From Clostridia bacterium (GTDB taxonomy: Bacteria > Bacillota > Clostridia > Oscillospirales > CAG-272), in contig JAFTIV010000082.1 in the NCBI GenBank assembly GCA_017456685.1, positions 1 through 9,956 on the forward strand: a DNA stretch of 9,956 nucleotides, in the 5' to 3' direction. The translations under genes and the position numbers were made by a program. Under the pieces are notes generated by a model that made no database searches, was not told the origin of the DNA, and worked only from the letters and a program-made list of their open reading frames with translations. This document shows, in pieces, positions 320 through 3,962 of this stretch; within the stretch, counting starts at the first letter, position 1, and each line of letters starts with the position of its first letter.

Positions 320-1627
320 TTATGCCCTTCCATTATAGAATTTTATTATTATGTCCTCTCCTCGAGCACCGTCTCGCACGGCAACCTCGGGAATTGCAAC
401 AATCCCATCGTCGTCGCATATTAGAGGGATTTTATCCCTTAGGTGCGAAGGAATTTTTCTTTCACAAAGAAGCTTTTTAAGCTTTTTTGTAAGCCTTCCT
501 TGAATTATAGTGTCGCCATCCTTGCGTGAGCGCACATATAAATTCCCTCTTAATTTATTTTTATCAAGCCTTAGGGTAAAATAAGGCGTGCCCTTAGGCT
601 CATTGTCAGCATTATATGCCAAGGTAACATTTGCTTCATTGATAAAGCTAACGCCCTTTTCAAGGAGCATTGAAAATTCAACCCTTGCAAGCGCACTCGT
701 TTCAACAAAGGCAGCGTAATCGCCCTCTCGCTTGAGTGAAATACCCTTACAAAGATTTATCATATCACCGCATTTTGCGCTTGGCATAAATGCAACACAA
801 GCAAGAATTGCATTATTATCAAGATTTTTGCCAGCTACAAGCTTAAGCACCCTTGCCTTAACGCTTTGGTGTAGGGCATCAAACTCAATTGGTGGAATTT
901 TTCCATCCTTGCAATTCCTTGATACAAATTCCTTGGCGACGGAGTTAATAAAGTCCTCATCTGCACGAAGCGAGGCGGTAAGCCTTGCAACGGCGGAATT
1001 AAGCGACGGGTTCAGCTCCTCAAGCATAGGAACGATTTTGTGCCTTATATAATTCCTTGTATATTCGGTATCATTATTTGTTGAGTCGGTAACATACTCG
1101 ATATTGTTTTTCTCGCAATACTCAAGTATTTCCCTACGGCTCGCATAAATAAGCGGGCGAAGGATTTTTCCGTTTACCGCCTTAATGCCAGAGATGCCGT
1201 TTGCACCGCTTCCGCGAGCGAGATTAAAAATAACGCTCTCGGTATTATCATTTGCATTATGCGCGGTCAAAATAGCATCAAAGCCACGAGACAAAAGCTC
1301 CTCGTTAAATACACGATAGCGCTCCTCTCTTGCAGTCTCCTCAATTCCCTTACCGCGCTCCTTAGCAAGTGCGGGAATATCTATTCTATGACAAGAGAGC
1401 TCAATTCCGTATTTTTCACACACGGATTTGCAAAACGCCTCGTCACTGTCAGCCTCTGCACCTCTTATCATATGATTGATATGAACGCACACAACAGCCC
1501 TTGCCTTGCCTACAAAATAATGCAAAAGGGCTGAGGAATCAGCTCCGCCCGAAAAGCCGACTATTACTTTTTCGTATGCGCTGAGCATATTATAATCCGC
1601 AACAGCGCGCTCAACCATTTTCTCCAA
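320..1627 (-). CDS. tilS: tRNA(Ile)-lysidine synthetase
   Basis: TilS ligates lysine to C34 of the CAU-anticodon tRNA-Ile using ATP, switching it to read AUA codons; it is essential in most bacteria. The 435-residue length fits the long form of the family. The PP-loop SGGADSS lies at residues 26-32. The VHINHMIRG block (48-56), TAHNANDN (121-128), RPLI (157-160), DSTNND (181-186) and RNYIRHKIVP (191-200) are family blocks of the N-terminal ATPase domain. The C-terminal substrate domain contains RSRKDGDTI and the LKKLLCERKIP segment followed by IPEVAVRDG. I chose the TTG start at 1627 because AAGGGG at 1635-1640 sits seven bases upstream. An in-frame ATG at 1618 would lie 16 bases from that site and only 3 from a GGAG. 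The gene is first in an operon with hpt and has its own promoter at 1663-1691. Confidence 0.95.
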   Translation of the reverse strand: MEKMVERAVADYNMLSAYEKVIVGFSGGADSSALLHYFVGKARAVVCVHINHMIRGAEADSDEAFCKSVCEKYGIELSCHRIDIPALAKERGKGIEETAREERYRVFNEELLSRGFDAILTAHNANDNTESVIFNLARGSGANGISGIKAVNGKILRPLIYASRREILEYCEKNNIEYVTDSTNNDTEYTRNYIRHKIVPMLEELNPSLNSAVARLTASLRADEDFINSVAKEFVSRNCKDGKIPPIEFDALHQSVKARVLKLVAGKNLDNNAILACVAFMPSAKCGDMINLCKGISLKREGDYAAFVETSALARVEFSMLLEKGVSFINEANVTLAYNADNEPKGTPYFTLRLDKNKLRGNLYVRSRKDGDTIIQGRLTKKLKKLLCERKIPSHLRDKIPLICDDDGIVAIPEVAVRDGARGEDIIIKFYNGRA

Positions 1628-2232: not shown

Positions 2233-2487
2233 ATGAGGGAGAAAAATTTGCCTATATCGCCAAGGCATACATTTAATTTTATAAAGCTGTGCTACATACT
2301 CATAATAATAGTTTCGCTTTTTGGTCTTAAGCTGGCGATATACCCAGAGGGCGAATATCAGGCCTGGCTTGCAATAAGTGCCTCGAGCATTTTAATTGAG
2401 GGTGTAATATACGCAACCATAATTTGCTCAGTGCTCTCTTATGCCATTGTTAAAGTGCTTTATTCTGTCAAAAATGTAGAAAAATGA
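2233..2487 (+). CDS. Small two-helix membrane protein, function unknown
   Basis: This is an 84-residue protein that I cannot assign to a family. Two hydrophobic segments are evident: about residues 16-37 (FIKLCYILIIIVSLFGLKLAIY) and 53-77 (ILIEGVIYATIICSVLSYAIVKVL). A short acidic loop with PEGEYQAW lies between them. Positive residues at both ends (Arg2, Lys4, Arg11; Lys74, Lys80) predict a hairpin with both termini in the cytoplasm. The start is well fixed: AGGAG at 2223-2227 lies five bases before ATG, and a near-consensus promoter is at 2174-2202. It stands alone and is followed by the DnaA-box-rich gap. Nothing in the sequence indicates a substrate or partner. Confidence 0.82.
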   Translation: MREKNLPISPRHTFNFIKLCYILIIIVSLFGLKLAIYPEGEYQAWLAISASSILIEGVIYATIICSVLSYAIVKVLYSVKNVEK

Positions 2488-2516
2488 ATTGTTGATTTGT
2501 CAAAATGAGGCTTAAG

Positions 2517-2547
2517 CTCGCTTGCCAAGCGGAGTTGCCCGTTTTTT
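2517..2547 (+). terminator. Weak terminator-like hairpin after the membrane protein gene
   Basis: CTCGCTT (2517-2523) pairs with AAGCGGAG (2527-2534) with one bulged G and a 3-base loop. Six T residues follow at 2542-2547, but seven bases intervene between stem and T tract, which is unfavourable. It is the only terminator candidate soon after the stop codon at 2487. Confidence 0.3.
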
Positions 2548-2835
2548 GTGCAAAATGTCAATTTTGGCACTCAATTATTCACGCATATTCACCCATTTTT
2601 TGCATATTTTTTTGTCAAGATGTTTTTGGAAAATTTTAAAAATTCTACATTCCATTTTTGGCAAATGTGTAAATTTCGACATAAAAAACCGAGTTTTCCA
2701 CGGGTTCAATGTGTGGAAAAGTGGATAAAATTCAGTTCAAACTACGAGTTTTTCACACTTTCCACGGAGTTTTCCACGCGTTTTTATCGTTTTCGGGTGG
2801 ATTTGTCCACTCTCGCTTAATTGGCAAGTGTAAAA
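2547..2835. other. Cluster of DnaA-box-like 9-mers (candidate replication origin or DnaA-binding locus)
   Basis: Against the relaxed DnaA box TTWTNCACA, three sites match at all nine positions: 2547-2555 (minus, TTTTGCACA), 2712-2720 (minus, TTTTCCACA) and 2749-2757 (plus, TTTTTCACA). Six more match at eight: 2575-2583 (plus), 2666-2674 (minus), 2694-2702 (plus), 2720-2728 (minus, TTATCCACT), 2770-2778 (plus) and 2827-2835 (minus). Weaker copies are at 2585-2593, 2758-2766 and 2803-2811. The 12-mer GAGTTTTCCACG occurs twice (2691-2702 and 2767-2778). No convincing gene occupies the region, and an A/T-rich stretch follows on the right. dnaA and dnaN are not in the window, so origin function is an inference. 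Confidence 0.55.
2797..2810. repeat. Short inverted repeat GTGGA-TTTG-TCCAC
   Basis: Five-base arms are perfectly complementary about a 4-base centre. The right arm is the core of a weak DnaA-like box (TTGTCCACT, 2803-2811) and the left arm is the reverse core TCCAC, so it may be a pair of facing half-strength DnaA sites rather than an RNA hairpin. Confidence 0.35.
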
Positions 2836-2861
2836 AATGATTTTGTGAACATTGCACAGTA

Positions 2862-2910
2862 TTGTTTAGTTAACTAACATTTCAAATCATTAAAAAATTT
2901 TAAAAAAATT
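2862..2910. other. A/T-rich stretch with 12-base palindrome, candidate DNA-unwinding element
   Basis: This nearly all-A/T segment directly follows the DnaA-box cluster. It contains the perfect palindrome TTAGTTAACTAA (2866-2877) and the A/T block at 2889-2910 (runs of A and T with no G or C). The side-by-side order of box cluster and A/T block is the layout of bacterial origins. From 2911 to about 3020 I see no gene and no clear regulatory element. Confidence 0.35.
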
Positions 2911-3024
2911 CGGCATTTTCACCAATTATGAATACCGACATTTGTCAAAATTCATCATTGAAATTTTGTTTCTCGGTTACACTAAGATGACAGGGCTACC
3001 TTTCGATTTCAACACCCATTTACT

Positions 3025-3065
3025 ACATAAAAGGACGGATGCAAATTGCATCCGTCCTTTTATGT
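3025..3065. terminator. Strong bidirectional terminator
   Basis: Two perfectly complementary 20-base arms (3025-3044 and 3046-3065) surround one base, with GC-rich core GGACGGATGC. The stem is flanked by AAAA on the left and TTTT on the right, so each strand ends its hairpin in a T tract. It lies seven bases beyond the stop codon of the minus-strand SGNH hydrolase gene, whose operon it ends. It would also stop any plus-strand transcript leaving the DnaA-box region. Confidence 0.9.
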
Positions 3066-3071
3066 TTTTAT

Positions 3072-3962
3072 TTAGTCTTGATTTATTTTAAGTGCTATTT
3101 TTTCACGATTGGCATAATCCTTCAAAATGCCCCTTGCAACCCAGTCATTTGTCTTGCCAAGATAATGAATAAGGTCCCAACGGAAAATGTTACAGTCCCA
3201 AGCATACTCATCATAGAAGGGTGCTGTTCTTACATCAAAAACGCTTGTTTTTGGAAGCTCCCTTGCAAGCTTATAGAATAGGTCGTTTATATAATTCATT
3301 GCGTTAAGATGCTCGCCAGAGGGATCCTCCTTGAGCATAACCTTATCGAATGGCATTCTGTGAAGCACGACAGGCGCCTCGTAGCCTATCGCCTCTCTTA
3401 AGCCTGTGAAAATCCTTATATAATCTTTTTCAAGCCTACCCTCAAGGCTTGGAATTTCAACTCTTGTCTCCTGCTCTCCACCGCGCCAGTGTATTCCTAC
3501 AAAGTCGGGCTCAAGCTCGTTTTCCTTCATATATTTATTAAATAGCTCAAGAACATGAACAGCAAGCGGGTACATTGACACATCGCACTCTCCAAGCTTG
3601 CCAGGAACGAGCACCCTTTCTCTGTCAGGGCTCCACATTCCATACACGCCCTGAGAGCCTATTGCAATATGAATTATATAAAGGTCAGGAAGAGATGTGC
3701 CTGCATCTATTTCGTCGTGCCAAGCCCTTGCAAGGCAATTCGCAACGGAATAGGTATTGTCCTGAGTTTCAGCAAGGTTCATTCCAAAGCTTGTATAGCC
3801 CGAAAAGATAAGCTCAGTCGAATCAAAGCTTTGATTGGGGTCTCTGTTAAGTCCATATACATTTTTAAGAGGCTCTGCGATTATATCGCGCTCCTCCATT
3901 GGCATTGCGTGTCCAACTGCATTTGACTGACCAAAAAGCATAAATATTGCTATTTTTTTCAT
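3072..3962 (-). CDS. SGNH hydrolase, sialate O-acetylesterase (SASA)-like carbohydrate esterase
   Basis: This is a predicted esterase of the SASA/CE6 group, whose members remove acetyl groups from sugars. In the 296 residues, GQSNAVGH at 11-18 is the nucleophile block (Ser13), IHWRGGEQE at 157-165 corresponds to the family's WxQGExD block, and DLIH at 263-266 gives the catalytic Asp-His pair. The protein begins only ten residues before the nucleophile motif and lacks a signal peptide, so it is probably cytoplasmic and acts on imported or intracellular substrates. The start at 3962 is supported by AGAGG eight bases upstream. The gene is last in a three-gene operon, three bases behind the ASCH gene, and ends at a strong terminator. 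The true substrate cannot be told from the sequence. Confidence 0.85.
   Translation of the reverse strand: MKKIAIFMLFGQSNAVGHAMPMEERDIIAEPLKNVYGLNRDPNQSFDSTELIFSGYTSFGMNLAETQDNTYSVANCLARAWHDEIDAGTSLPDLYIIHIAIGSQGVYGMWSPDRERVLVPGKLGECDVSMYPLAVHVLELFNKYMKENELEPDFVGIHWRGGEQETRVEIPSLEGRLEKDYIRIFTGLREAIGYEAPVVLHRMPFDKVMLKEDPSGEHLNAMNYINDLFYKLARELPKTSVFDVRTAPFYDEYAWDCNIFRWDLIHYLGKTNDWVARGILKDYANREKIALKINQD

Follow-up and report, generated by a model that had tools for sequence, protein, structure and literature searches.

A conserved six-box array beside tilS in gut clostridia, predicted to collect DnaA away from the replication origin

Results

A conserved non-coding element to the right of tilS

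The window, that is the whole stretch of 9,956 nucleotides analysed here, is contig C57 of a draft genome (1.43 Mb, 63.7% complete) of an uncultured gut clostridium. Its genus is represented by metagenome assemblies, and the genus genomes used are draft MAGs throughout. The closest named relatives of RibF are from Clostridia bacterium and Oscillospiraceae bacterium MAGs, many of which come from the gut of deer, goat, and sheep. A small ORF (2233-2487, plus strand) and an SGNH-type gene (3072-3962, minus strand), which was named by eye and has no Pfam match, enclose a non-coding stretch (2488-3071). To the left of this stretch are hpt and tilS (320-1627, minus strand), both confirmed by models. 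In all 27 of the genus genomes with the element described below, tilS stands next to it in divergent orientation. The G+C content is 33% over 2488-3072 versus 41% for the whole window. At the 3' end of the SGNH-type gene, a perfect inverted repeat of 35 bases (3028-3062) is bordered by runs of A and T and probably acts as a terminator in both directions.

Within the stretch, positions 2540-2965 form a conserved non-coding element of about 425 bp, which has a mean column identity of 0.70 in an alignment of 26 genus copies (the window and 25 others). The preliminary description saw no convincing gene here, and we agree: ORFs of at least 60 aa occur at only some of the 26 aligned loci and vary in strand and place. 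The A/T block that it reported is present (approximately 2880-2910), but its columns are poorly conserved. No Rfam family reached its gathering score anywhere in the window, and a structured RNA or riboswitch was rejected on a consensus of -7.75 kcal/mol over 445 columns with a covariation term of -0.44.

Six boxes in a rigid layout

The element had drawn attention as a dense cluster of DnaA-box-like words, and the cluster is real. Positions 2547-2915 contain three exact TTWTNCACA matches (at 2547 and 2712 on the minus strand and at 2749 on the plus strand), the number given before, and nine one-mismatch sites in our box scan where six had been counted. In 1,000 local dinucleotide shuffles of 2547-2915, the mean number of exact matches was 0.21 and one shuffle reached three; sites with at most one mismatch numbered 12 versus a shuffle mean of 2.91, and no shuffle was as high. 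The word TTTTCCAC occurs exactly three times in the same interval, versus a shuffle mean of 0.06 (0/1,000). Two finer observations were also borne out, namely that the 12-mer GAGTTTTCCACG is repeated (2691-2702 and 2767-2778) and that two boxes abut, 2712-2720 and 2720-2728 having base 2720 in common.

Six TTTTCCAC-type boxes make up the array, one forward, two reverse, and then three forward. Box 1 (TTTTCCACG, 2694-2702, plus strand) is followed by box 2 (TTTTCCACA, 2712-2720, minus strand), box 3 (TTATCCACT, 2720-2728, minus strand), box 4 (TTTTTCACA, 2749-2757, plus strand), box 5 (CTTTCCACG, 2758-2766, plus strand), and box 6 (TTTTCCACG again, 2770-2778, plus strand). The mean identities of their 8-mers over the 26 copies are 0.96, 0.96, 0.85, 0.92, 0.95, and 0.99, respectively, and 0.94 for all box 8-mers versus 0.55 for the spacers. 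Box 4 opens a triplet with invariant spacings, as box 5 starts 9 bp after box 4 and box 6 starts 12 bp after box 5 in 26/26 copies (the 9/12 triplet). The successive start spacings across the array are 18/19, 7/8, 28/29 (or 39), 9, and 12 bp; the long variant, found in four of the 26 copies, adds 10-11 bp, about one helical turn. The last base of boxes 1, 5, and 6 is G instead of the A of the E. coli/B. subtilis consensus, and boxes 3 and 5 depart from that consensus at a second position.

Conservation and linkage to tilS

A DNA query with 2488-3071 gave matches in 29 of the 57 genomes searched, including its own: 26 of the 28 other genus members, plus G036 and G041, which belong to other families. 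The match in G004 is spurious, as this genome has no strong profile match and tilS was not found in it. A sequence profile of the element core (R1) has strong matches in 27 of the 29 genus genomes; 26 of these matches went into building it, and G011 is the only independent one. These 27 are the same genomes in which we found tilS; in G004 and G018, neither a strong profile match nor tilS was found. The array is on the tilS contig in 27/27 genomes, 601-1083 bp from the 5' end of tilS.

The 9/12 triplet occurs seven times in 1.12 Mb of genus contigs, once on each of the seven element contigs and nowhere else, and its exact match in the window's own assembly is at the element only. Clusters of at least three TTWTCCAC boxes number 13 in 1.27 Mb, and all five clusters with at least five boxes are the element; on the element contigs of G001 and G010, each cluster has three such boxes. 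Many equally dense clusters across the genome, which the preliminary description had held out as evidence against its proposal, did not turn up: with up to three mismatches allowed, the three-box layout matches the own assembly only at the element (no mismatches) and on contig C52 (three mismatches), and R1 at E ≤ 0.1 matches only the element (both strands) and the dnaA-dnaN gap. Because this assembly is incomplete, further box clusters may be missing from it.

Flank motifs and adjoining ORFs

Conserved words other than the six boxes flank the array. The left-edge motif TTTGTGCA (2545-2552) has an identity of 1.00 in the 26 copies, occurs in none of 15 genus dnaA-dnaN gaps, and reads as TTTTGCACA, a box-like word, on the reverse strand. 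It is followed by the motifs TGTCAAG (2613-2619, mean identity 0.98) and TTCTACA (2643-2649, mean identity 0.97) and, on the other side of the boxes, by the palindrome TTAGTTAACTAA (2866-2877). TTAGTNNNCTAA, the word counted for this palindrome, is found in 21 of the 26 elements and TGAATATTCA in 11, both in 0/15 genus gaps; among 15 upstream regions, one has TTCTACA and three have TTGTCAAG. The flank motifs may be sites for another protein.

The small ORF at 2233-2487 encodes 84 aa with two hydrophobic stretches and has no Pfam or NCBIfam match. Its stop is 57 bp from the element edge in the window. Taking the longest ORF that ends there at each locus, we found an ORF of 70-100 aa ending near the left edge of the element at 26/26 loci, with the stop within 3 bp at 19 of them. 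In their alignment, inspected by eye, these proteins have K18 and the two hydrophobic stretches in common. The database contains 13 relatives at E ≤ 0.001, none of which has a Pfam domain, and the named ones are from Clostridia MAGs. On the right side, the neighbour gene varies within the genus, and the nearest ORF converges on the element at 17 of the 26 loci, points away at seven, and is missing at two; at the 17 loci the right gene and the left small ORF both face the element, each pointing toward the array. A tilS promoter is disfavoured by the distance of 0.6-1.1 kb and by the convergent genes.

Origin features at dnaA and at the element

The cluster had been proposed as a candidate replication origin, with the remark that dnaA is absent. 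The absence holds for the ORF list of the window but not for the assembly, in which dnaA is on contig C67 and is followed by dnaN after a gap of 0.88 kb. In each of the 25 genus genomes in which both were found, dnaA and the element are on different contigs, so the element cannot be the part of a bipartite origin that adjoins dnaA. The argument from the position of tilS in B. subtilis does not transfer: tilS is on none of five dnaA contigs (one of them fetched in part only) versus all seven element contigs read.

A DnaA-trio pattern is described for oriC2 of C. difficile (PMC7561715). The window genome's own dnaA-dnaN gap shows this pattern: TAGTAGTAGGAGTAGCAGTAGAGGGG is found there next to A/T-rich sequence and to box-like words, and at L001:2140-2345 an imperfect trio array on the plus strand precedes box-like words, a likely unwinding site. 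An exact-repeat scan detected no trio array in the window element, but it overlooked the imperfect one in this gap as well; we therefore used a graded score. All 15 genus dnaA-dnaN gaps score 3.0-5.0, whereas the 26 element copies score 1.5-2.5 and none has a trio array. Scores in control upstream regions go up to 3.0, which leaves the weakest gap of the genus (G005, 3.0) without a clean separation from them. Outside the genus, eight of 20 dnaA loci have a trio score below 3 or no gap.

The dnaA and element cases were told apart only by skew corrected for transcription (third-position skew corrected for gene strand, 60-kb flanks). Raw GC skew is noisy and driven by gene strand, with a clear sign change near dnaA only in G015. 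After correction, three of four testable contigs have an origin-sense (negative to positive) change at dnaA with a confidence interval that excludes zero (95% intervals: G026, 0.098 to 0.200; G010, 0.070 to 0.162; G015, 0.005 to 0.189), and the fourth falls short of significance (G009, -0.008 to 0.151). The distance between the dnaA mark and the minimum of the corrected cumulative skew is 0.6 kb in G026, 2-3 kb in G010, G015, and G025 (in G025 at the contig end), and 16 kb in G009. At the element, where the preliminary description had proposed to look for a skew minimum, none of six testable contigs has a positive change; G021 and, marginally, G015 have a change of the opposite sense. The dnaA contig of G025 and the element contig of G010 were left out as untestable. 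In G020, the skew on one side does not change sign over 134 kb.

A word shared with the dnaA-dnaN gap and the DnaA of the genus

Relative to 1.12 Mb of genus contigs, TTTTCCAC is enriched 72-fold in the elements (present in 26/26) and 36-fold in the genus dnaA-dnaN gaps (present in 13/15). That elements and gaps have this word in common lends indirect support to the predicted DnaA binding. The base after TTTTCCAC is mostly A in gap boxes and often G or T in element boxes, a difference that may tune affinity.

DnaA recognizes its box through the signature RDH[ST]T. Of 15 DnaA tails of the genus that we tried to recover, nine were obtained, and all nine have R in place of H; domain IV reads NRDR[ST]T in the genus (including the DnaA encoded at L001:325-1773) versus KDHTT in sister genera. 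Textbook box rules may thus not hold for this DnaA.

Across 36 dnaA loci from 35 genomes, the 9/12 triplet occurs in no dnaA-dnaN gap and in one upstream region. This region belongs to G041, a complete genome from the same order as the host, which has the box triplet upstream of dnaA; profile matches on its contig C1 are at 258 (5' of dnaA), 181324, and 194520.

Related arrays in other genera

In a scan of the family, 68 of 196 genomes had a profile match at E ≤ 1e-4, four of which are the genus itself. Many of these matches cover the triplet part only, and several of the weaker arrays look degenerate. We read 19 array loci outside the genus, 18 from the family plus that of G036, leaving out region L215; the arrays of L196 and L197 (in G155 and G067) are identical and probably represent a single locus, and G067 is 8% contaminated. 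At the 19 loci we found neither dnaA nor dnaN, nor any of ten window proteins that were sought, including TilS. NCBIfam models identified TsaD (G132 and G124), Rex (G132), MraZ (G177), YifB (G116), MnmE (G106), and dTMP kinase (G131) among the array neighbours, and other neighbours were judged by eye. The array begins 25 bp beyond the 3' end of tsaD in G132 (L209) and 388 bp beyond it in G124 (L207). Two family arrays are located just upstream of mraZ, identified by model in G177 and by eye in G032.

Discussion

We interpret positions 2540-2965 as a conserved non-coding six-box array outside the origin that most likely collects DnaA cooperatively, away from oriC, and we put the probability of this at roughly 0.7. 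The best reading of the sequence is a chromosomal DnaA-box array of the kind represented by datA and the DnaA-box clusters of B. subtilis, predicted to sequester DnaA, and the DnaA-binding locus or datA-like titration site that the preliminary description had listed among its options is supported to that extent. The array has several boxes beyond chance in an intergenic region, and it is located apart from oriC by contig (25/25) and by skew; membership in the DnaA-box clusters rests on this location and on the boxes, with DnaA binding a prediction. DnaA would bind the array cooperatively, and the inverted pair and the 9/12 triplet would seed an ordered DnaA complex. DnaA held there would leave less for initiation at oriC and so restrain initiation, as reported for the B. 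subtilis clusters, and an accessory DNA-binding protein would bind the flank motifs. Given its strict linkage to tilS and the small ORF within the genus, the array may instead have a local role.

We compare the array with B. subtilis through published descriptions. The B. subtilis DnaA-box clusters are likewise dense, intergenic, and outside oriC (PMC4447404, PMC5295017, PMC13220808), and a strain lacking six of them (delta-6) is reported to initiate early (PMC5295017, PMC13220808). The gcp-ydiF site, which is described as binding ATP-DnaA with a Kd of 0.15 uM, is located between two 3' ends (PMC4447404), as is the window element. The arrays past tsaD in G132 and G124 resemble it further, as the tsaD family is also called gcp. 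The genus differs in that we saw a single strong cluster in each genome, located at tilS, in which the six boxes are rigidly arranged and accompanied by further conserved motifs.

E. coli datA, too, is described as a non-coding DnaA locus with several boxes, situated apart from oriC, whose sequence and spacing are under selection, and DARS1 and DARS2 as having a three-box core plus extra sites with conserved spacing, a likeness at the level of these descriptions; for datA and DARS2, spacing and IHF/Fis sites are reported to matter (PMC4585315). In contrast to the six-box element, datA has five boxes plus an IHF site and hydrolyses DnaA-bound ATP. The array might also act on the nucleotide state of DnaA, as datA and DARS do. 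The bipartite oriC of C. difficile is described as having DnaA-box clusters, too, and the counterpart of its oriC2 trio array is in the genus dnaA-dnaN gap and not in the window element (PMC7561715). In contrast to that origin, the element has no trio array, no adjoining dnaA or dnaN, and no origin-sense skew shift. The literature covered by our search, as far as its text was available, contains no earlier report of such an array in clostridia; the rigid layout, the flank motifs that 15 dnaA-dnaN gaps of the genus lack, and the tiny ORF ending at the element edge are new.

Several other explanations have to be weighed against a DnaA-collecting array. The most novel makes the element a Bacillota counterpart of datA or DARS, in a group whose best-studied model reportedly has no such loci; the rigid six-box array and sites for accessory proteins (TTTGTGCA, TGTCAAG, TTCTACA, and TTAGTTAACTAA) would set the nucleotide state or the supply of DnaA, and the small two-helix protein encoded at the edge might anchor the array to the membrane. 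We consider this unlikely. We think it less likely still that the element is a DARS- or datA-like site proper, at which the nucleotide of array-bound DnaA would be exchanged or hydrolysed with the help of a flank-motif protein. The rigid spacing and the conserved non-box motifs absent from the 15 genus gaps do recall datA and DARS2 as described (PMC4585315), but a review presents B. subtilis as having no IHF and no datA or DARS loci (PMC13220808).

Control of transcription, by which array-bound DnaA would regulate tilS-hpt, the small ORF, or the right gene, would account for the linkage to tilS (27/27 genomes) and to the small ORF (26/26 loci), and DnaA is reported to regulate genes beside some B. 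subtilis clusters (PMC4447404); a right ORF that points away at seven of 26 loci and the two family arrays just upstream of mraZ would also fit. We nevertheless judge it improbable, because the array is located beyond the small ORF's 3' end and 0.6-1.1 kb from tilS, the right gene converges on the array at 17/26 loci (two have no right ORF) and changes within the genus, and none of the ten window proteins, including TilS, was found at the 19 array loci read outside the genus. Most improbable of all is that the chromosome has its origin at the element, or a second or backup one, and that the A/T-rich flanks are the unwinding element. It is the densest box cluster found, above the dnaA-dnaN gap, and sits within A/T-rich non-coding DNA, and the triplet upstream of dnaA in G041 means that this module can belong to an origin. 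Yet a trio array is found in 0/26 elements versus trio-like arrays in 15/15 genus gaps (the weakest of which, at 3.0, equals the highest controls), an origin-sense skew shift is found on 0/6 testable element contigs, and the element is never on the dnaA contig (25/25); it is very probably not an origin.

The DnaA-collecting array that we favour bears on how these bacteria limit initiation. Bacillota have no datA, DARS, or Hda, and how they nevertheless limit initiation to one round per cycle is described as an open question (PMC13220808). Such arrays recur next to genes unrelated to each other, in two cases just beyond tsaD, as at gcp in B. subtilis; this hints, without being proof, that placing DnaA arrays at a distance from oriC is an old habit. 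With their nearly fixed geometry and dozens of natural variants, these arrays form a comparative set for learning which boxes, spacings, and flank motifs matter.
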